Assembly (NCBI GenBank): GCA_002698985.1
Contig: PAAY01000037.1
Coordinates: 113,104 to 177,103, forward strand
Source of the DNA: Saprospirales bacterium
GTDB taxonomy: Bacteria > Bacteroidota > Bacteroidia > Chitinophagales > Saprospiraceae
Direction: 5' to 3'
Length of the DNA: 64,000 bases
Shown: piece by piece, positions 50,252 through 59,687 of the stretch
Numbering within the stretch: position 1 is the stretch's first letter
Layout of the letters: each line of letters begins with the position of its first letter
Made by a program: the position numbers and the translations under genes
Notes under the pieces: model-generated
The model's input: only the letters and a program-made list of their open reading frames with translations
Told to the model about the DNA's origin: nothing
Database searches by the model: none

Positions 50252-50743
50252 TTAAGACTTGCAGGGGCGGGGACCACTGGAGCTTGCCACAAAATTCTGA
50301 ATGTCGTATATCGAACCGTACTCAGGGATTCCGTAGATTGGCTCAAAGACCACCTTGTAGTTGTTGAAGTTGACACCACTACACTGATTCGATTCAATGA
50401 TGCCCTCGACGATGTTCTCCATCACCATGCCTTTGAAGTCCTCAAAGGTGTAGGTGTTGAGAATGCTGGCATCGAAGGGGAGGTAGAGGTACAACGGCAT
50501 CTGTTCCCGATCAAATTCGTAGAGTGACCTGTTGCTCACCGTATTGCGAATCTGATTGATTTTGACGCGTGTGGCATCAATTTGGACCTGGTCGATGTTT
50601 CCGATCATCAGACATGGCTCTGTGTCAGTGTGGTCGCACGTTGTAGTGTGTACATGTTCTTCAACCATCACCTGGGCAACAGCGCCAGGGAGATTGATGA
50701 ACACGAGAATTACGATGGAAAGAATGTACGTTATCTTGTTCAT
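50252..50743 (-). CDS. secreted hypothetical protein
   Basis: Signal peptide MNKITYILSIVILVFINLPGAVAQ. Confidence 0.6.
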   Translation of the reverse strand: MNKITYILSIVILVFINLPGAVAQVMVEEHVHTTTCDHTDTEPCLMIGNIDQVQIDATRVKINQIRNTVSNRSLYEFDREQMPLYLYLPFDASILNTYTFEDFKGMVMENIVEGIIESNQCSGVNFNNYKVVFEPIYGIPEYGSIYDIQNFVASSSGPRPCKS

Positions 50744-50828
50744 AATTTTGTCTTTTTGTATTGTGGTGAATGAAAAGGGTTTAGGGAACTACGAGCTAGG
50801 CTGTAGTCCGTGTGAAAATTTTGTTTCA

Positions 50829-51227
50829 TTATGCACGTGTAGTGCACATTTTGTCCAATGAGATGTCACGTATGTCAATTTCTATTCTGTTCTCAATTGG
50901 TAAATTCCAGTCGCCTTCCCAACAACAATAAAACTCAATACTTTCTTGAGCCGTCATTTCGGTCAGTAAGTCGATAAGTTTCTGTGGTGATTTTTTATTT
51001 TCTTCATTTACCAATTCTGCGTCATAAAAATCTTCACTACCAAATCCAAAGTCGCAAGAACAACCTGAACTTGAACCAACATAATAAATGTTTTTCTTTG
51101 AGAATTTTGGTCGTAAAGCATTTACTTCTTCGTCAGTTGGCTTTTCAAAGTATATGACTGTTTGTCCAGCAACAAACGTCCCTAACTCTAATTCCTTGTC
51201 TGTCGATATGTAAACTGCTAAACACAT
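50829..51227 (-). CDS. hypothetical protein (single-ORF accessory unit)
   Basis: MCLAVYISTDKELELGTFVAGQTVIYFEKPTDEEVNALRPKFSKKNIYYVGSSSGCSCDFGFG...; AT-rich. Confidence 0.7.
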   Translation of the reverse strand: MCLAVYISTDKELELGTFVAGQTVIYFEKPTDEEVNALRPKFSKKNIYYVGSSSGCSCDFGFGSEDFYDAELVNEENKKSPQKLIDLLTEMTAQESIEFYCCWEGDWNLPIENRIEIDIRDISLDKMCTTRA

Positions 51228-51280
51228 TTTTCTTTCTTATTCTCAATTATTTCTGATTGTCGGTTGTCGTCATAGCATTG

Positions 51281-51417
51281 GGCATAACGTTTTTGCGCTT
51301 GGCGTTCGTGCGGGATTTCAGGGCACAAAACTGTCAACCCAGCACTAAAGCCCAATTGAAAAACTGCACTTGAATTTAAGCACGTCACCCCGCATGACGC
51401 CAAACGCATGTTACCGG
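51281..51417. repeat. attC-like imperfect inverted repeat E1
   Basis: ggcataacg + stem tgcgcttggcgttcgtgcggg (51294-51314) pairs imperfectly with ccccgcatgacgccaaacgca (51388-51408) + tgttaccgg. Confidence 0.7.
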
Positions 51418-51553
51418 TTCGTGCTTCTTTTCTGTCGTGTTGTTGTCTGACCGTGTTGCAGTGTCTTTGTGCGTTGGTTTGGTGGCTCTTTTGCAAAACT
51501 TGGCTTTAGCGTTGGCTTGTGCGGTTTTGCAAATGTGCCACCAAATGCGTTGG

Positions 51554-51847
51554 TTAAAGGTTCTTTTGTTCCCACCAAGGTGGTTCATTTACATTGTTTA
51601 TTTTCTTTGTTTCTGTTGGTTTATTAATGTTCCCTTTTGTCGATGGTTTGTGATTATTATTCTTTGAATCAAGATATTTAATGAAATAAAGTCCAGTCCC
51701 TGGAATGCCAATACTAAAATATTTTCGACCTGATGGAGAAACTCCAAATCTAAAACCAGGAATACCCCAACTCATACCAACACCACCTTTTGAAAGTGTT
51801 GTCCTGAATGGTCCCGACCTAAATACTTTTCTAAATATCCAACTCAT
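51554..51847 (-). CDS. DUF4236-like protein
   Basis: MSWIFRKVFRSGPFRTTLSKGGVGMSWGIPGFRFGVSPSGRKYFSIGIPGTGLYF; ATGA overlap with the kinase stop. Confidence 0.83.
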   Translation of the reverse strand: MSWIFRKVFRSGPFRTTLSKGGVGMSWGIPGFRFGVSPSGRKYFSIGIPGTGLYFIKYLDSKNNNHKPSTKGNINKPTETKKINNVNEPPWWEQKNL

Positions 51848-53523
51848 GATTTAAACCAACTTTGAACCCAACCACCTAAAATACCACCACCAATTGCTCC
51901 TAAAAACCACAATTTTCCATTAGATGCACCGCCAATAATAGCTGCACCAATAACTGCAAAAATTATCGGTACAATACAACCATTGTTGTCACTACTGCTA
52001 GTTGAAGAACTGGATGATTTTGTTGTCTGGCTTGTACTTGTATAAGATGGTGTTGGCGGTTTATACGATGTAGTCGGTGGTTTATATGTACTAGTTGTAG
52101 GTGGAGTCTTAATTGTTGCTTTTGGCGGTGTAGAAACAGGCTTGTGTTTGTATAAGTCATTGAAAACATCAACTTCTTTGTCAATTACTTTTTTGGGTGT
52201 TACGGGTACTTGAATTGATTGTTTGGGAGTTGGTTTAAATTGAAGTCTTTGATTTGCTTCATTTTCGCTTGAAAGTATCTGTATTTGAGCAGCAAGTTCA
52301 ACTACTGTCTGAGGCTTATTGCCGTAGCTTGCTATTACACCAGTGACACTTACCCATTTTCCAACTAAAGATGACGGACTAATGCCATTGGCTTTCAAAG
52401 CAGCTAAACCTTCTTGCCAAATGACAATTGTGAATGTATGATTAGGCCATGCTCCACCAAAATTTAAGAATGTATATGGGTCACCATATTTGGTTGTAGA
52501 AGATTTGATTGCTCCAATCTTGCCTACAACTTCTATTTTCTCGCCAAAATGCTCAAGAATGCTACCGACTTTGCTTGCGTCTAAAATTAGATATTGACTT
52601 CTGTTAATTGAGATAGTACCAGCAGCAGATTTATTATAAGTAAAATTGCCACTTAAGAAGTCCTTTAAATTTGGAACCTTTTCAAAATCCAAATGGCAAC
52701 AGCCAATTAATCTTTCAATTAGTGGCTTTATTTCGGAAATAGCAGAAAGGTCACTAATCAGGGATGAGTTCTGTAAATCAGCAAAGTCTTGACTTTTAAA
52801 AAGTATGTTCTCGCTATTATCGTATTTTTTCCATAGCGATGGATTTATTGAAATCGCTTTTAAACCAATATAAATTACTAGTGATGAAAACCTATCAATG
52901 TGCTGATTATAATGCGATGCTGAACGCTTAGGGTGTTGGTAATTTATGTGACCAATTTCATTTGTTTTGAGAGTAGCTAATTCAGGAAAATACATTCCGT
53001 CATAGTCAATTAAATACAGACTGTCATTTTTTACAATTATGTTACCATGCTGTAAGTCACCATGAGCAATTCCAAATCTTTCTAGTTCATTGATTAGATT
53101 AACAAAATCGGAAAGGAGTTTTTCTACTTTCGCTTTTTGCGTATAATTTTTACTCAAGTAAATATTCAATGGCTCACCTTCTAGCCATTGCATTTTAATA
53201 ACAGGATATGGCTTTCCGTTGACTTTTATTCCGTCCGAAAGATATTTTGCTTCGACAAAGTATTTTGAATTGTTTTTACTTAGAAAGGTTCCAATTGCTT
53301 GATATCTTCTTTGTAAATCGGAAATATCTCTGTGAAAACATCTTACTGCCCAACTTTTTTGACTATTGGATAGCTTATAAGTAATTGTAAATCCGCCTGA
53401 GTATGGCTTTGGCAAACCCAATGGGGTAGTTTCTACAGAGCTCGATTTTAAGTCTGCATCATTGAAGGAAATTCTTGGGTTTTGTACCGCTACGTTATAT
53501 TCGTCACCCCTTGGTAAAAGCAT
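51844..53523 (-). CDS. atypical Ser/Thr kinase (TerY-P-triad type) with OB-like domain, Thr/Pro/Ser-rich linker and Gly-rich C-terminal membrane segment
   Basis: PYSGGFTITYKLS...WAVRCFHRDI; GIAHGDLQHGNIIV; YLIDYDGMYFPEL; VVGKIGAIKSSTTKYGDPYTFLNFGGAWPNHTFTIVIW; CIVPIIFAVIGAAIIGGASNGKLWFLGAIGGGILGGWV. Confidence 0.85.
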   Translation of the reverse strand: MLLPRGDEYNVAVQNPRISFNDADLKSSSVETTPLGLPKPYSGGFTITYKLSNSQKSWAVRCFHRDISDLQRRYQAIGTFLSKNNSKYFVEAKYLSDGIKVNGKPYPVIKMQWLEGEPLNIYLSKNYTQKAKVEKLLSDFVNLINELERFGIAHGDLQHGNIIVKNDSLYLIDYDGMYFPELATLKTNEIGHINYQHPKRSASHYNQHIDRFSSLVIYIGLKAISINPSLWKKYDNSENILFKSQDFADLQNSSLISDLSAISEIKPLIERLIGCCHLDFEKVPNLKDFLSGNFTYNKSAAGTISINRSQYLILDASKVGSILEHFGEKIEVVGKIGAIKSSTTKYGDPYTFLNFGGAWPNHTFTIVIWQEGLAALKANGISPSSLVGKWVSVTGVIASYGNKPQTVVELAAQIQILSSENEANQRLQFKPTPKQSIQVPVTPKKVIDKEVDVFNDLYKHKPVSTPPKATIKTPPTTSTYKPPTTSYKPPTPSYTSTSQTTKSSSSSTSSSDNNGCIVPIIFAVIGAAIIGGASNGKLWFLGAIGGGILGGWVQSWFKS

Positions 53524-54278
53524 TAGTCAATATTTATTAGTACGACAGAAATGTCATCATTTTTCATTTCGTTCTCCTTTATTTTGTTGAATGTCCAATT
53601 TATAAAATCTGTTTGATAGTCTTCATAGTTTAGTAAGGTTAGCAGACTTAGCCAAGGACTTTCACCTTGATTAAGGCGTTTGAAAATCCACATTGCTAAG
53701 GCATCTGATGCAAGTATTAATAAGTCTCCACTTTCAACCTGACCGTTCAAATATTTAACTGATTTTTCAAAATCTGTTTGAAACTTAGGATTCGTGGCAA
53801 ACAATGAAGGTGTATTGCCAAAGTCTTCAAAGCTAGTTATTGGGAAAGAATATATTAATTCATTATCCCGTACTTGAAATAAAGTGCAGTCGCCAATTGA
53901 AACTGCTTCAAAAGTTTTTTCTTCTAAATTTAAAGTGATACCTAAAAAAGTAGCAAAAGCACCATTTTCCAATTTTTGTTGGGCGTACCAAGGCAACTCA
54001 ATAACAAATGTTATTGATTGCCATGCTTCAGAAATAGCATTTATTGTAGATGGTAAATTAACTAAATCAAATGGTTTGTCTTTATAGCAACTCACTAAAA
54101 GGTCAGACCATTCTTTTGAAAATGATGATTCAGTTGCTCCGTCTGAAATAGCGAACTTTATTATTGGTTCACTTTCTAATTGTGAAATGGATGGAACTAA
54201 AACATTGTCTTCATTCTCATTTACCGAATTACCAACTTTTGCTATTGAAATGTATTTATATGAACACTTCAATATCAT
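53523..54278 (-). CDS. PP2C-like protein phosphatase
   Basis: NENEDNVLV, FAISDGATESSFSKEW, VSIGDCTLFQV, LASDALAMWIF, MKNDDISVVLINID. Confidence 0.87.
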   Translation of the reverse strand: MILKCSYKYISIAKVGNSVNENEDNVLVPSISQLESEPIIKFAISDGATESSFSKEWSDLLVSCYKDKPFDLVNLPSTINAISEAWQSITFVIELPWYAQQKLENGAFATFLGITLNLEEKTFEAVSIGDCTLFQVRDNELIYSFPITSFEDFGNTPSLFATNPKFQTDFEKSVKYLNGQVESGDLLILASDALAMWIFKRLNQGESPWLSLLTLLNYEDYQTDFINWTFNKIKENEMKNDDISVVLINID

Positions 54279-55117
54279 CTTAGTTGGAGACTTGGACGTG
54301 TTCCAATTTCAATTGCGGTAATAATTAAGTCAATATCACCATTGAGAACAAAGGCTTTTGCACCGTCTGATAGATTTAAACCAAATTCTTGAGCAGCTAC
54401 GTTTCTCATAAAACTTGGGAGAAGAGATGCACCATTAAAGAGTTTTTCGGAATAATGGTCGGGTAACTGAACTTCAGGGCCAGGAAATGAAATTGGATTA
54501 ACACTTCTTGCATTTGTATGCAGATTGAAAAGAATTACATTACCGTCATTTGAAGCTTGGCTTGTCAATTTATTCATTTCTTCTGTCGGGTCTCCGTCTG
54601 TACTCTCTCCGTCTGTTATGTGAATCACAACAGGGGGAAAACAGTTTGGATTTGATGAAAGCCAATCAGCAATAATAGTGTTCGCTTTTCTAAATGCTTC
54701 TGTCATTGGCGTTCCACCATTTGCAGTTGGGTCAAACCATATTGGAAATTTCACTGAAGTATCAACCAAGCCACCAGCACCGTCTGAAACTCTTTTTGTT
54801 CTTTCTTCAATTCTTGCTGGATTATTTGCAATCTCCGATATAGGAACTAAGTTTTTTCCCGATAAACTACCACCAAATGCTGGACCAACACCATTTGCTC
54901 CATATCCAATAACTCCAACATTATAGTAGTCTCTAACCCCTTCTGATTTTGCACACTTTATTACAAGTTGTTGTAACATTCGGTTAATAACGTCAGCTAA
55001 TGCTTCTGATTTAGGTTTTCCAACACTTACGTAATTGTCGGACATGGAACCTGATTGGTCAATTACAAAAAGAAAACAACTTGGGTTGTTTCTACTGATT
55101 TCTGCTGAGTATGCCAT
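54275..55117 (-). CDS. von Willebrand factor A domain protein (TerY-like)
   Basis: CFLFVIDQSGSMSDNYVSVGKPKSEALADVINRML MIDAS; TPMTEAF; IHITDGESTDGDP. Confidence 0.9.
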   Translation of the reverse strand: MAYSAEISRNNPSCFLFVIDQSGSMSDNYVSVGKPKSEALADVINRMLQQLVIKCAKSEGVRDYYNVGVIGYGANGVGPAFGGSLSGKNLVPISEIANNPARIEERTKRVSDGAGGLVDTSVKFPIWFDPTANGGTPMTEAFRKANTIIADWLSSNPNCFPPVVIHITDGESTDGDPTEEMNKLTSQASNDGNVILFNLHTNARSVNPISFPGPEVQLPDHYSEKLFNGASLLPSFMRNVAAQEFGLNLSDGAKAFVLNGDIDLIITAIEIGTRPSLQLR

Positions 55118-55302
55118 ATTATTTTGATTTTAATTGTTAGCAAATTTAATATTTAGGATGATGTTTCGTTGGGGCAAAAGCAAATGTGCTGCAACTGTGT
55201 CGGCTTGTGTGATGGGTTGCAGATCTTTTGATTTTGCTGAAGCGTTGGCTTGTCTGTTCATTTGTCCATTCGTTTTATTTTTGCACTGTCGTCTTTTAGC
55301 AT

Positions 55303-55440
55303 GACCGGTAACGGTCTCGTGTATGAGCAGTAGCGGATTTTATATGACTACTTTTCTGGCTACAATATACTCTAATAAAAAGAAAAAACGGTTCAAGTTT
55401 GCACTCAAACCGCTATTGCTTATACACAATGTTCTCTGCT
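55303..55440. repeat. attC-like imperfect inverted repeat E2
   Basis: ccggtaacggtctc + gtgtatgagcagtagcgg (55319-55336) pairs 16/18 with ccgctattgcttatacac (55410-55427) + aatgttctctgct. Confidence 0.75.
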
Positions 55441-55456
55441 GGCTTTTTTGGTTCTC

Positions 55457-55675
55457 TTAACTGATAACTTCTGCCTTGAAGCCCTTGCTTTGAACAATTT
55501 TTATCACTTCATCTTCGGATATTCCTTTGGAAATCACGGTAAGGATTTTGTCGCTGTTGTCCGTATCAACATCCCAATGACAAACCCCTGCGGCATTGTC
55601 AAGGTCTGATTGTACTTTGGATACGCAACCTCCACAATTGAGGTTTGTTTTGAATTTCAGTTCTTTATTTTCCAT
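55457..55675 (-). CDS. heavy-metal-associated (HMA) domain protein, CopZ-like
   Basis: MENKELKFKTNLNCGGCVSKVQSDLDNAAGVCHWDVDTDNSDKILTV. Confidence 0.88.
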   Translation of the reverse strand: MENKELKFKTNLNCGGCVSKVQSDLDNAAGVCHWDVDTDNSDKILTVISKGISEDEVIKIVQSKGFKAEVIS

Positions 55676-55771
55676 TGTTTTAAAAATTTTATTGGTTATT
55701 AAATAATGCAAATTTTGTTACTATTCCATTCTTTATTGTTGTACAATTTTGGAAATGATTTGTAAGATTTA

Positions 55772-57997
55772 CTATATTACTTTTTTCCATTTCAATCGCA
55801 AACTATTACTTACAACACTTACGCTACTCATTGCCATAGCTGCTCCTGCAATCATTGGATTGAGTAAAAAACCATTAATTGGGTATAAAATTCCTGCTGC
55901 AATCGGAATACCAATCAGGTTATAAATAAATGCCCAAAACAAGTTTTGCTTAATGGTAGCGACCGTTTGTTTGGATAGTTTGATGGCTTGTGGTATTTTG
56001 GTTAAGTCTGATGAAATGATGGTCATTTTAGCTACATCCATAGCAATGTCAGAGCCTTTGCCCATTGCAATACTAACATCTGCGGTTGCCAATGCGGTGC
56101 TGTCGTTTATTCCATCTCCAACCATTGCTACGGTTTTGCCCTGTTTTTGAAGTTCTTTTACAAAATCAGCTTTGTGCTTTGGCAATACTTCTGCTTTGTA
56201 ATGTTGGATGCCTGTTTGCTCGGCAATGGCTTTAGCGGTAGCTTCGTTGTCGCCTGTGAGCATATATAAATCAATGCCCATTTCCTGCATTTCTTTAATT
56301 GCTTGAGCAGAGGTTTCTTTTATTTTATCGGAAATAGCCACTACGGAAAGAGCTTGTTTACTGTCTGAAAACCAAATAACGGTTTTAGATAATTTGCTCC
56401 ATTCCTCCGCTCGTTGTTGCAATTCTTCGGGAATAGCGATGCTATTTTCAAACAATAACTTTTTGTTTCCTACAAAATAGGTTTCGTTATTATAGTCGGC
56501 CTTTGCTCCTTTTCCTGTAATGCTGTCAAAATTGGAAAGTGTTGTTGGAGTGACCTCTCCCAAATATTTTACAACCGCTTCTGCCAATGGGTGTTCAGAT
56601 TGTTTTTCAATACTCAAAAGAATATCTTTAGTGCTGTCGTCATTGTTCAACCAATGGATGTCTGTAACCTGTGGACGACCTTCAGTAATGGTTCCTGTTT
56701 TGTCCAAAATGATAGCATCTACTTTTTTGGCTAACTCCAAACTTTCGGCATCTTTAATTAAAATGCCTTGCTCGGCACCTTTGCCAACGCCTACCATAAT
56801 CGCTGTTGGTGTTGCCAATCCCAAAGCACAGGGACAAGCGATAACCAACACCGTTACTGCTGCTAATAATCCTTGAACTATAGCATTTTCACCACCAAAA
56901 ATCATCCAAACTATAAAAGTTAAAAGTGCGATTCCCATAACTACAGGCACAAAAATCCCTGCTATTTTATCCACCAATTTCTGTACAGGTGCTTTGCTCC
57001 CTTGTGCATCCTGAACCATTTTGATAATTTGGGCAAGCATTGTTTCCTTGCCGACTTTAACGGCTTTAAATTGAAAACTACCTTTTTGGTTTATCGTTCC
57101 CGCAAATACTTTTTCGTTTTTATTTTTCAATACAGGAACAGGCTCACCACTCAACATACTTTCATCTACATACGAACTGCCCGAAATGACCATTCCATCC
57201 ACTGCAATTTTTTCGCCCGGTTTTACCAAAATCACATTTCCTTCAATAACTTCTTCAATAGGCGTTTGCTTTTCTTTGCCATCTGCTTGAATTACGATAA
57301 CCGTTTTGGGTTGTAAGCCCATTAGTTTTTTAATAGCAGATGAAGTATTTCCTTTGGCTTTTTCTTCTAATAATTTTCCTAACAATATGAAAGCGATAAT
57401 GACGGCTGCGGCTTCAAAATAGACGTGGGCGTGTAATCCTCTTTGATGCCAAAAATCTGCAAATAACATATTGAACACGCTAAACACATAGGCAATACCT
57501 GTGCTTAATGCTACCAAGGTATCCATATTGGCTTTACGGTGTTTGGCTTGTTTCCACGCATTTACAAAAAAATCTCTACCCAACCACAAAACAACAGGTG
57601 TTGAAAATGCCCACATAATTTCATTGGCATAAGGCATTTCCATAAAAAACATTCCTATTATAACCACTGGCAAAGAAAGAATGACAGCCCAAATGGTTTT
57701 ATTTTTGAGTTCTTTAAACTTCTTTTCGTGAATGGCTTCAAGGGATTCCTGCTGTTTGGATTCGTCTTCAATTAATAAATCATATCCTACCCCTTGAACC
57801 GCTTTTCGTAGGTTTTCGGCATTGGTTACGTTGGATAGAAATTCAACGGTCAGATTCCCTGTAGCATAATTTACCGAAGCATTTACCACTCCCTCCTGAT
57901 GTGTTACAATACTTTCTACACTACTTGCACAAGAAGCACAAGTCATTCCCAAAACAGGGAAAGTTTGCGTAACTGTATTTTGATTTGTTGTTGCCAT
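55772..57997 (-). CDS. copA: copper-translocating P1B-type ATPase
   Basis: HMA GMTCASCASSVE; ACPCALGLATPTAIMVG; ILDKTGTITEG; MVGDGINDS. Confidence 0.95.
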   Translation of the reverse strand: MATTNQNTVTQTFPVLGMTCASCASSVESIVTHQEGVVNASVNYATGNLTVEFLSNVTNAENLRKAVQGVGYDLLIEDESKQQESLEAIHEKKFKELKNKTIWAVILSLPVVIIGMFFMEMPYANEIMWAFSTPVVLWLGRDFFVNAWKQAKHRKANMDTLVALSTGIAYVFSVFNMLFADFWHQRGLHAHVYFEAAAVIIAFILLGKLLEEKAKGNTSSAIKKLMGLQPKTVIVIQADGKEKQTPIEEVIEGNVILVKPGEKIAVDGMVISGSSYVDESMLSGEPVPVLKNKNEKVFAGTINQKGSFQFKAVKVGKETMLAQIIKMVQDAQGSKAPVQKLVDKIAGIFVPVVMGIALLTFIVWMIFGGENAIVQGLLAAVTVLVIACPCALGLATPTAIMVGVGKGAEQGILIKDAESLELAKKVDAIILDKTGTITEGRPQVTDIHWLNNDDSTKDILLSIEKQSEHPLAEAVVKYLGEVTPTTLSNFDSITGKGAKADYNNETYFVGNKKLLFENSIAIPEELQQRAEEWSKLSKTVIWFSDSKQALSVVAISDKIKETSAQAIKEMQEMGIDLYMLTGDNEATAKAIAEQTGIQHYKAEVLPKHKADFVKELQKQGKTVAMVGDGINDSTALATADVSIAMGKGSDIAMDVAKMTIISSDLTKIPQAIKLSKQTVATIKQNLFWAFIYNLIGIPIAAGILYPINGFLLNPMIAGAAMAMSSVSVVSNSLRLKWKKVI

Positions 57998-58084
57998 ATC
58001 TCGATTGTTTTAATTACAATGCAAAGTGGCAACAATGGGTAGTTTTTTTGTTGTGTAATTTTGGAAATGAGTTGTAAGATTTAC

Positions 58085-58648
58085 TTATACCTCATCCAAA
58101 GGTTTTCTTCTGTCTTCACGTATTTTTTTAAAATGACTGGGCGAAAGCCCTGTTACTTTTTTAAATTGATTACTCAAATAAGCAACACTTGAATAATTGA
58201 GTCGAAAAGCAATTTCACTTAATGATAATTCGTCATAAACCAATAGTTCCTTTACCTTTTCTATCTTTTGAGCAATAAAATATTTTTCTATGGTCGTGCC
58301 TTCTACTTCCGAAAACAGGTTGGACAGGTAGCTGTAATCGTGATGGAGTTTTTCATTTAACAACTCCGAAAGGTTGGTTTTTATATCGTTGTCCTGATGA
58401 TGAACCAAGTCGATAATGATGTTCTTTATCTGTTCAATGATACGGCTTTTTTTGTCGACAATCATTTCAAAGCCTAATGACACCAACGCTTTACTAAATT
58501 TTTCTTTTTCTTGTCCTGTGAGTTCTCTTTCAAATGTTACTTCTCCCAATTGTACATCATTCGGCTCAATTCCTAATTTATCCAATTCGCTTTTTACCGC
58601 CATAATACAGCGGTTGCAAACCATATTCTTTATAAAGAGTGTTGTCAT
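58085..58648 (-). CDS. AraC-family regulator with N-terminal HMA-like metal-binding domain
   Basis: TTLFIKNMVCNRCIMAVKSELDKLG; C-terminal AraC LSEIAFRLNYSSVAYLSNQFKKVTGLSPSHFKK. Confidence 0.88.
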   Translation of the reverse strand: MTTLFIKNMVCNRCIMAVKSELDKLGIEPNDVQLGEVTFERELTGQEKEKFSKALVSLGFEMIVDKKSRIIEQIKNIIIDLVHHQDNDIKTNLSELLNEKLHHDYSYLSNLFSEVEGTTIEKYFIAQKIEKVKELLVYDELSLSEIAFRLNYSSVAYLSNQFKKVTGLSPSHFKKIREDRRKPLDEV

Positions 58649-58714
58649 ATTTTTTCAGAATACTTCAAGTTTATCACAGGTGTTTTTTTAGCTTGCAGAG
58701 AACGCCCAAATATA

Positions 58715-58753
58715 CGCATTGCGTCTATGCACCTATACCCGCATTGCGTCTAT
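58715..58753. repeat. two 14-bp direct repeats (cgcattgcgtctat) at 25-bp period upstream of the recombinase
   Basis: 58715-58728 and 58740-58753 identical. Confidence 0.8.
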
Positions 58754-59687
58754 CAAATTGGTTCAGTTGGTAAAATTTCTGTTTAACCGTTTGGTAGTTA
58801 GTGTTTTGTCTCTTATGTTTGAAGCGAAAAAGTTTATATCCCGCAACTCTCCTGCTATGAAAACAAAGCTCACCCAGTTTCGAGACCTTTTGAAAGTACA
58901 GTGCTATGCCTACCGCACCGTCAAGTCATACTCCAATTGTGTAGCGAAGTTTCTTATGGCCTTTTCGGCTTACAAGCTTGAAGCAGTAACTGAAAAAAAC
59001 ATTGCCAACTACATCCATCACCTGGTGGAGAAAGAAGGCATCAGTGCCAGCTACCAGCGGCAGATGCTTGGGGCCATCGGAAAGTATTTTGAACTTTGCG
59101 AGGGGCGAAAACTGGACTTGAAGCACCTCTATCCGAAGCGCAATCAAAATAGGTTGCCAAAGTACCTCACCAAAGATGAAGTTCGGAAGATGTTGGATCG
59201 AACCTCCAACCTGAAGCATAGGTGTATCCTGATGCTGCTTTATGGGGCTGGGTTTCGACTGTCAGAGGTGCTCAATGTAAAGATTACGGATGTGGATTCA
59301 TCGAGTATGAGGCTGATGGTGCGTGGTTCCAAAGGAAACAAAGACCGCTTGGTTGTGTTATCTGAAACCTTGCTTTTGGAGTTGAGAAAATACTTTTTAC
59401 AATACAAGCCCAACGTATTTCTTTTTGAAGGACCAAAAGGAGGTAAGTACTCTTCGCGCAGCGTTCAGGCCATTGTCAAACAGGCAGCCCAAAGGGCCGG
59501 CATTTCAAAACCGGTGACACCACATATTCTCCGCCACAGTTTTGCTACACATCTTGTTGAATCAGGTATAGATATCCGCTATGTGCAGGAAATGCTGGGG
59601 CACAATTCCATCAAAACAACCCAGATCTATACCCACATTACCGATGTAGCCAAAGGTAATTTGAGGAGCCCACTGGATATGCTGTAA
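58719..59687 (+). CDS. XerC-like tyrosine recombinase (likely start at 58857, MKTKLTQF)
   Basis: LYGAGFRLSEVLNVKITDVD (Arg), HILRHSFATHLVESG (HxxR), LGHNSIKTTQIYTHI (H...Y). Confidence 0.92.
   Translation: MRLCTYTRIASIKLVQLVKFLFNRLVVSVLSLMFEAKKFISRNSPAMKTKLTQFRDLLKVQCYAYRTVKSYSNCVAKFLMAFSAYKLEAVTEKNIANYIHHLVEKEGISASYQRQMLGAIGKYFELCEGRKLDLKHLYPKRNQNRLPKYLTKDEVRKMLDRTSNLKHRCILMLLYGAGFRLSEVLNVKITDVDSSSMRLMVRGSKGNKDRLVVLSETLLLELRKYFLQYKPNVFLFEGPKGGKYSSRSVQAIVKQAAQRAGISKPVTPHILRHSFATHLVESGIDIRYVQEMLGHNSIKTTQIYTHITDVAKGNLRSPLDML

Follow-up and report, generated by a model that had tools for sequence, protein, structure and literature searches.

The window analysed here, 64,000 nucleotides from a Saprospirales bacterium (Bacteroidota), carries four minus-strand genes that encode, in order, a VWA (TerY-like) protein, a PP2C-type phosphatase, a Ser/Thr kinase with a predicted OB fold and a small DUF4236 protein (Table 1). 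Neighbouring genes overlap at their start and stop codons, as ATGA between VWA and PP2C (54275-54278), TAATG between PP2C and kinase (53521-53525) and ATGA again between kinase and DUF4236 (51844-51847). An earlier note had placed the overlaps at these positions, which the open reading frame coordinates bear out, and the three overlaps together support its proposal that the four genes form a single translational unit. The kinase/DUF4236 junction is again an overlap of 1 or 4 bases in related loci L027-L031, and all four frames are open in a 98.5% identical copy (L172). Inverted repeats, conserved in L027 and L028, lie at both ends of the operon and have CACATTTGC and GCAAAAG motifs in common. 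The downstream repeat, directly 3′ of DUF4236, occurs once in the genome and shows an apparent compensatory change in L027 (GGTGGC/GCCACC versus GCAAGC/GCTTGC). The span given in the earlier note, 51554-55117, takes in the four genes and stops short of the ends of the mobile unit in which they lie (51288-55312); the gene cassette described below had been missed.

Table 1. Features of the four-gene operon and of the adjoining array, in window coordinates.
Feature	Position	Strand	Remarks
VWA (TerY-like)	54275..55117	minus	280 aa; PADLOC TerY 343.6 bits
PP2C-type phosphatase	53523..54278	minus	251 aa; PADLOC PP2C 107 bits
Ser/Thr kinase with predicted OB fold (STK_OB)	51844..53523	minus	559 aa; STK_OB 418.7 bits
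DUF4236 protein	51554..51847	minus	97 aa; PF14020 58.9 bits
Upstream inverted repeat	55165..55250	minus	5′ of VWA gene
Downstream inverted repeat	51478..51545	minus	directly 3′ of DUF4236
TerY-P gene cassette	51288..55312	minus	~4.02 kb; exactly four genes and two inverted repeats
attC-like site, TerY-P cassette	51285..51418	minus	stem score 14.5
First cassette of array	55312..58703	minus	3.4 kb; AraC-type/HMA regulator, P-type metal ATPase, HMA chaperone
attC-like site, preceding cassette	55312..55442	minus	stem score 15.5
attI-like site	58700..58758	minus	two direct repeats CGCATTGCGTCTAT
Tyrosine recombinase	58860..59684	plus	275 aa; faces away from array; related to integron integrases

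The VWA protein scored 24.5 bits against Pfam VWA (cutoff 23.8) and 26.6 bits against VWA_2 (cutoff 27), its PADLOC TerY match spanned 1-277 of 277, and its MIDAS site is intact, with D20, S22, S24, T136 and D169 invariant in 10 relatives. The phosphatase reached 23.2 bits against Pfam PP2C_2, slightly under the cutoff of 24, with a PADLOC PP2C match over 8-239 of 242. Residues D24, D46-G47, G129-D130, D192 and N240-D241-D242 are invariant in 10 relatives, the metal-binding D46, D192 and D241 among them. For the kinase the Pfam Pkinase match was weak and below cutoff, and the PADLOC STK_OB match covered 3-499 of 562. Its catalytic residues, HGD (154-156), N161 and DYD (173-175), are invariant among relatives. 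At the position of the VAIK lysine it carries Arg61, and we call the kinase atypical because the usual ATP-binding lysine is arginine in most members; given this substitution, kinase activity is not certain. In an AlphaFold2 model the kinase domain is followed by a beta domain resembling an OB fold and then by a disordered linker, and two helices form the C-terminus. The predicted protein-kinase fold was confirmed by structure comparison with the PDB, the only part of the model so matched to a solved structure, and the OB assignment (predicted at ~325-420) combines the STK_OB match with the modelled beta domain. The linker (433-515) is rich in Pro, Ser and Thr and contains a conserved VFNDLYK helix, and the terminal helices (517-533 and 539-558) are predicted membrane helices, consistent with membrane insertion; the C-termini of OB-type kinases are commonly hydrophobic or amphipathic. 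Across Bacteroidota kinases the linker helix extends to KExDxFNDLYKxKP (residues ~448-460), and Chloroflexi kinases have LY-containing motifs at a similar position. The conserved helix is possibly a docking motif.

The near full-length matches to the TerY, PP2C and STK_OB models support the earlier assignment to a TerY-P-type triad and place it in the stand-alone OB-fold type. The window triad is an additional member of an already known system, with the same three families in the same order in a stand-alone operon; VWA-PP2C-kinase order was kept in nearly all of 80 relatives from many phyla. New relative to known TerY-P are the fourth gene, which overlaps the kinase and encodes a DUF4236 protein with a PWWxQKxL tail, and the integron-like cassette on which the unit rides; the two C-terminal membrane helices of the Bacteroidota kinases are a further difference from the OB type. 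The CoCoNuT/tellurite TerY-P triads have the VWA, PP2C and kinase order in common with the window, but theirs is a zinc-ribbon kinase, whereas the window kinase carries an OB fold and gave no match to a zinc ribbon. The more distant locus L083 and its relative L061 resemble that group, with a DUF4236 protein of the window's subfamily; in the L083 kinase a zinc ribbon and a helix-hairpin-helix are weakly predicted. The OB type is uncommon in Bacteroidota: among 396 genomes the only full-length match was in the window's own genome, and a class sample yielded one further, nearly full-length match.

The earlier note mentioned TerY-P as an antiphage candidate; the word candidate is outdated, since activity has been published (PMC7699616, PMC10889362, PMC11090510). 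OB-type modules are described as stand-alone antiphage systems, citing Gao et al. 2020 (PMC11090510), the same work is summarized as showing activity against T7-like phages (PMC7699616), and TerY-P is reported to protect P. aeruginosa from Autographiviridae (PMC10889362). By analogy, the window copy would act against phages. Relatives were found neither in viral contigs searched with the kinase or with the tail-type DUF4236 nor in phage records searched with the kinase, giving no sign of a phage-borne module or a phage-borne tail-type DUF4236 subfamily. Plasmids yielded distant kinase matches only, none with DUF4236.

The TerY-P cassette begins with GTTACCGG (a GTT start), and its attC-like site, a perfect match to that start, begins with CCGGTAAC and closes at GTT. 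Single-stranded, this site folds as an imperfect hairpin (z −2.3). A 4,029-bp block (window 51285-55313) is 98.5% identical to L172, a locus from another family, without a gap and with the same ends, which demonstrates that the four-gene unit moved whole. There the cassette abuts the same attI-like sequence as in the window, with no recombinase next to it, and a thioesterase-like cassette (GTTAGTGGC ... GCCACTAAC) follows the same cassette rule. In a Saprospiraceae locus, L028, these four genes, at 73% DNA identity, likewise make up a single cassette, with an unrelated attC (GTTATGCC ... GGCATAAC); a recombinase search of that genome found none. In all, attC sites were matched to their cassette start for two cassettes each in the window and L172 and for one in L028. 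Because the sites are bulged, an ungapped search misses them, and we used a gapped palindrome scan; the stems scored 14.5-16, and control loci gave 2 matches scoring 12 or more in 1.12 Mb. On the array, Rfam produced nothing above chance-level matches. A truncated third cassette starts with GTTATGCCC at 51287, no matching attC was found for it, and its ORF (50829-51227, 132 aa) has no family match above cutoff.

The first cassette, with start GTTCTCTGC and attC GCAGAGAAC ... GAGACC/GTTA, is devoted to metal transport, and its presence beside the TerY-P cassette bears on whether the module might be a switch for metal or tellurite stress in general rather than a phage-defence system. This older Ter-system reading draws on the description of TerY-P triads in tellurite resistance, where they were hypothesised to be metal-sensing switches (PMC11090510), as well as on the adjoining metal ATPase and on the metal bound by a VWA MIDAS site. 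We regard it as improbable: the neighbouring cassette is independent, with an attC of its own, and is missing beside the TerY-P cassette in L172, and the stand-alone OB-type triad is the type for which antiphage activity is reported.

Comparison with a same-genus genome identified the attI-like site as an insertion point. On the recombinase side the two genomes stay alike (85%) until exactly 58701, and on the far side conservation reaches 50273; between the equivalent positions that genome has other cargo, and the recombinase is kept. The arrangement resembles chromosomal integrons in that the recombinase faces away from the array beside an attI-like site with direct repeats, cassettes start with GTT and end in palindromic attC-like sites matching each cassette start, and cassettes are exchanged between genomes. 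It differs from them in its attC ends, which agree with the usual consensus at the GTT/AAC core alone, and in the recombinase itself, which passed NF040815 but scored 220.7 against TIGR02249, below the cutoff of 265. Residues 178-202 of the recombinase align across 180-247 of IntI4, so that ~43 residues are missing and with them the IntI-specific domain, which PMC9668308 gives as defining for integron integrases. We therefore rejected a canonical IntI integron. Judged from its sequence organization, the array appears to work like an integron, with a recombinase that lacks this defining domain. As it stands, the integron-like array occupies 50273-58703 and 58860-59684 of the Bacteroidota chromosome, with two matched cassettes and a truncated third. 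Recombinase copies number two in the window's genome, and the same-genus genome (G933) has one full-length and one interrupted copy (three matches). In the latter genome, the cargo of a recombinase locus (L186, 7875-17118) includes an AAA-ATPase-like protein (510 aa) and a SNF2-type helicase (1470 aa), both named by eye, and the interrupted second copy has its own attI-like site.

The proposal that DUF4236 is a dedicated fourth component was examined by its co-occurrence with the triad. DUF4236 is the next gene after the kinase in 9 of 80 related loci (L027-L031, L035, L036, L061 and L083), and lies directly behind it in the six nearest relatives, including the L172 copy. The sources of L027-L031 are Bacteroidota and one MAG labelled Chlorobiota. 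L035 and L036 are Paenibacillus, with a long form (~370 aa) that does not have the PWWxQKxL tail, and L061 and L083 belong to a distant clade of kinases without an OB fold, the DUF4236 gene being interrupted by TGA in the former and placed ~350 bp after the kinase, without overlap, in the latter. L042 may have a degenerate copy behind its kinase, and L050 has another DUF4236 type upstream. Most other TerY-P loci among the 80, several of which end at contig edges where absence is uncertain, do not have the gene. Nor do the close relatives L032-L034, which shows that the triad as such does not require it. The association and a subfamily signature thus stood, but as a general rule the proposal failed.

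These distributions also bear on whether DUF4236 is a passenger, caught once in a cassette beside the triad and co-transcribed with it while serving a function of its own. Unrelated genes can be bundled in cassettes, and the family is common without the triad: 40 of 396 Bacteroidota genomes have it, usually with no triad nearby, and apart from the window's own gene none of the fetched Bacteroidota DUF4236 genes has a triad kinase within 1.5 kb. Its absence from most TerY-P loci, L032-L034 included, fits this explanation as well. However, the same subfamily tail is linked to two distant kinase types, which argues for gene transfer with a triad-attached function; DUF4236 stands separately beside the Paenibacillus triads; the overlapping start is retained in the six nearest relatives; and the gene is under purifying selection (dN/dS ~0.15 versus L028). 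The chance that a random gene is DUF4236 is ~3e-5, so that three independent placements in 80 loci would have a probability, roughly estimated, of ~2e-9. The trait changes seven times on the kinase tree, and DUF4236 was therefore gained or lost repeatedly. On this sequence evidence we consider the passenger explanation rather unlikely and DUF4236 to be more than a bystander, in a subset of TerY-P systems only.

The DUF4236 protein matched PF14020 well above the cutoff of 27. Its model is a six-strand beta meander (1-59) followed by a disordered linker, and the protein ends in a conserved tail, PWWEQKNL. The fold had no PDB match with E < 0.001, a sequence search came back empty, and the model resembled only phage DUF4236 models. 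The TerY-P-linked short forms, Paenibacillus excepted, have the PWWxQKxL tail in common; every other ORF in the loci fetched lacks it. The order was sampled with 379 genomes, in which four DUF4236 genes bear the tail, each of them behind an STK_OB kinase. The window form is thus short, with a tail found only beside TerY-P, whereas most other members of the family stand alone. One stand-alone gene (L164, on contig 1 of genome G814) is like the TerY-P-linked subfamily without the PWWxQK tail; the same genome carries a near-identical TerY-P cassette.

A hydrophobic segment follows the domain in 27 of 55 DUF4236 proteins examined, which weakly suggests a role of the family at the membrane. Together with the two membrane helices at the kinase end, this would accommodate a model in which DUF4236 is a toxic effector that the triad controls through a phosphorylation switch, leading to abortive infection via the membrane. 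Such a model seems very unlikely to us, since the tail-bearing protein has neither a membrane segment nor evident catalytic residues and most TerY-P systems have no DUF4236; moreover, in P. aeruginosa most cells with TerY-P are reported to stay alive after infection, whether the phage dose is low or high (PMC10889362).

We assign a probability of about 0.6 to the reading that the four genes make up an OB-type TerY-P system for phage defence, that the fourth protein is dedicated to it, and that the unit is a single gene cassette on an integron-like platform. Our best reading of how it would operate is a membrane-tethered phosphorylation switch in which DUF4236 is a partner of the kinase or of VWA in the window's branch; that phosphorylation controls the switch, as the earlier note proposed, we infer from the domains. 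The two C-terminal helices would tether the kinase to the membrane after its long flexible linker, and its OB fold would detect the nucleic acid or the replication complex of a phage. Once activated, the kinase would phosphorylate target proteins, PP2C would hold the signal off or reset it, and VWA could serve as a metal-dependent scaffold tying the components together. DUF4236 would be a small non-enzymatic partner, docked via its PWWxQKxL tail, that supplies a substrate or membrane targeting in the window's branch; other TerY-P branches would have other neighbours, or none, in its place. More tentatively, the tail-bearing DUF4236 could mark a TerY-P subtype of its own, in which it would be an indispensable fourth subunit acting as adaptor or sensor; the subtype would spread as a four-gene cassette on a class of Bacteroidota integron-like platforms whose recombinase works on attC without the IntI-specific domain. 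We put this forward as a possibility against the odds.

A small conserved partner with a short docking-like tail offers a concrete handle on TerY-P, which is among the less understood phage-defence systems; the literature found, in the portions available, holds no description of its trigger and targets. We found no published description of the four-gene TerY-P and DUF4236 form in the open-licence literature, and one may exist elsewhere; the only paper there to mention DUF4236 is a Salmonella population study. A complete four-gene defence operon in one ~4 kb cassette shows how such systems can move whole. The array itself is possibly a platform of integron-like type, and complete integrons had very rarely been found in its phylum (PMC9024848).

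We also considered a variable effector slot 3′ of the kinase, occupied by a NERD nuclease in L063 and by a 249-aa gene of unknown function in L045, and rejected it as too scattered. In L063 (7479-8258, Lentisphaerae-labelled), the NERD nuclease has a zinc ribbon, and its gene overlaps an OB-type TerY-P kinase gene at the end of the latter. A Nocardia genome (L104, 6884-12968) carries a tandem pair of TerY-P triads.
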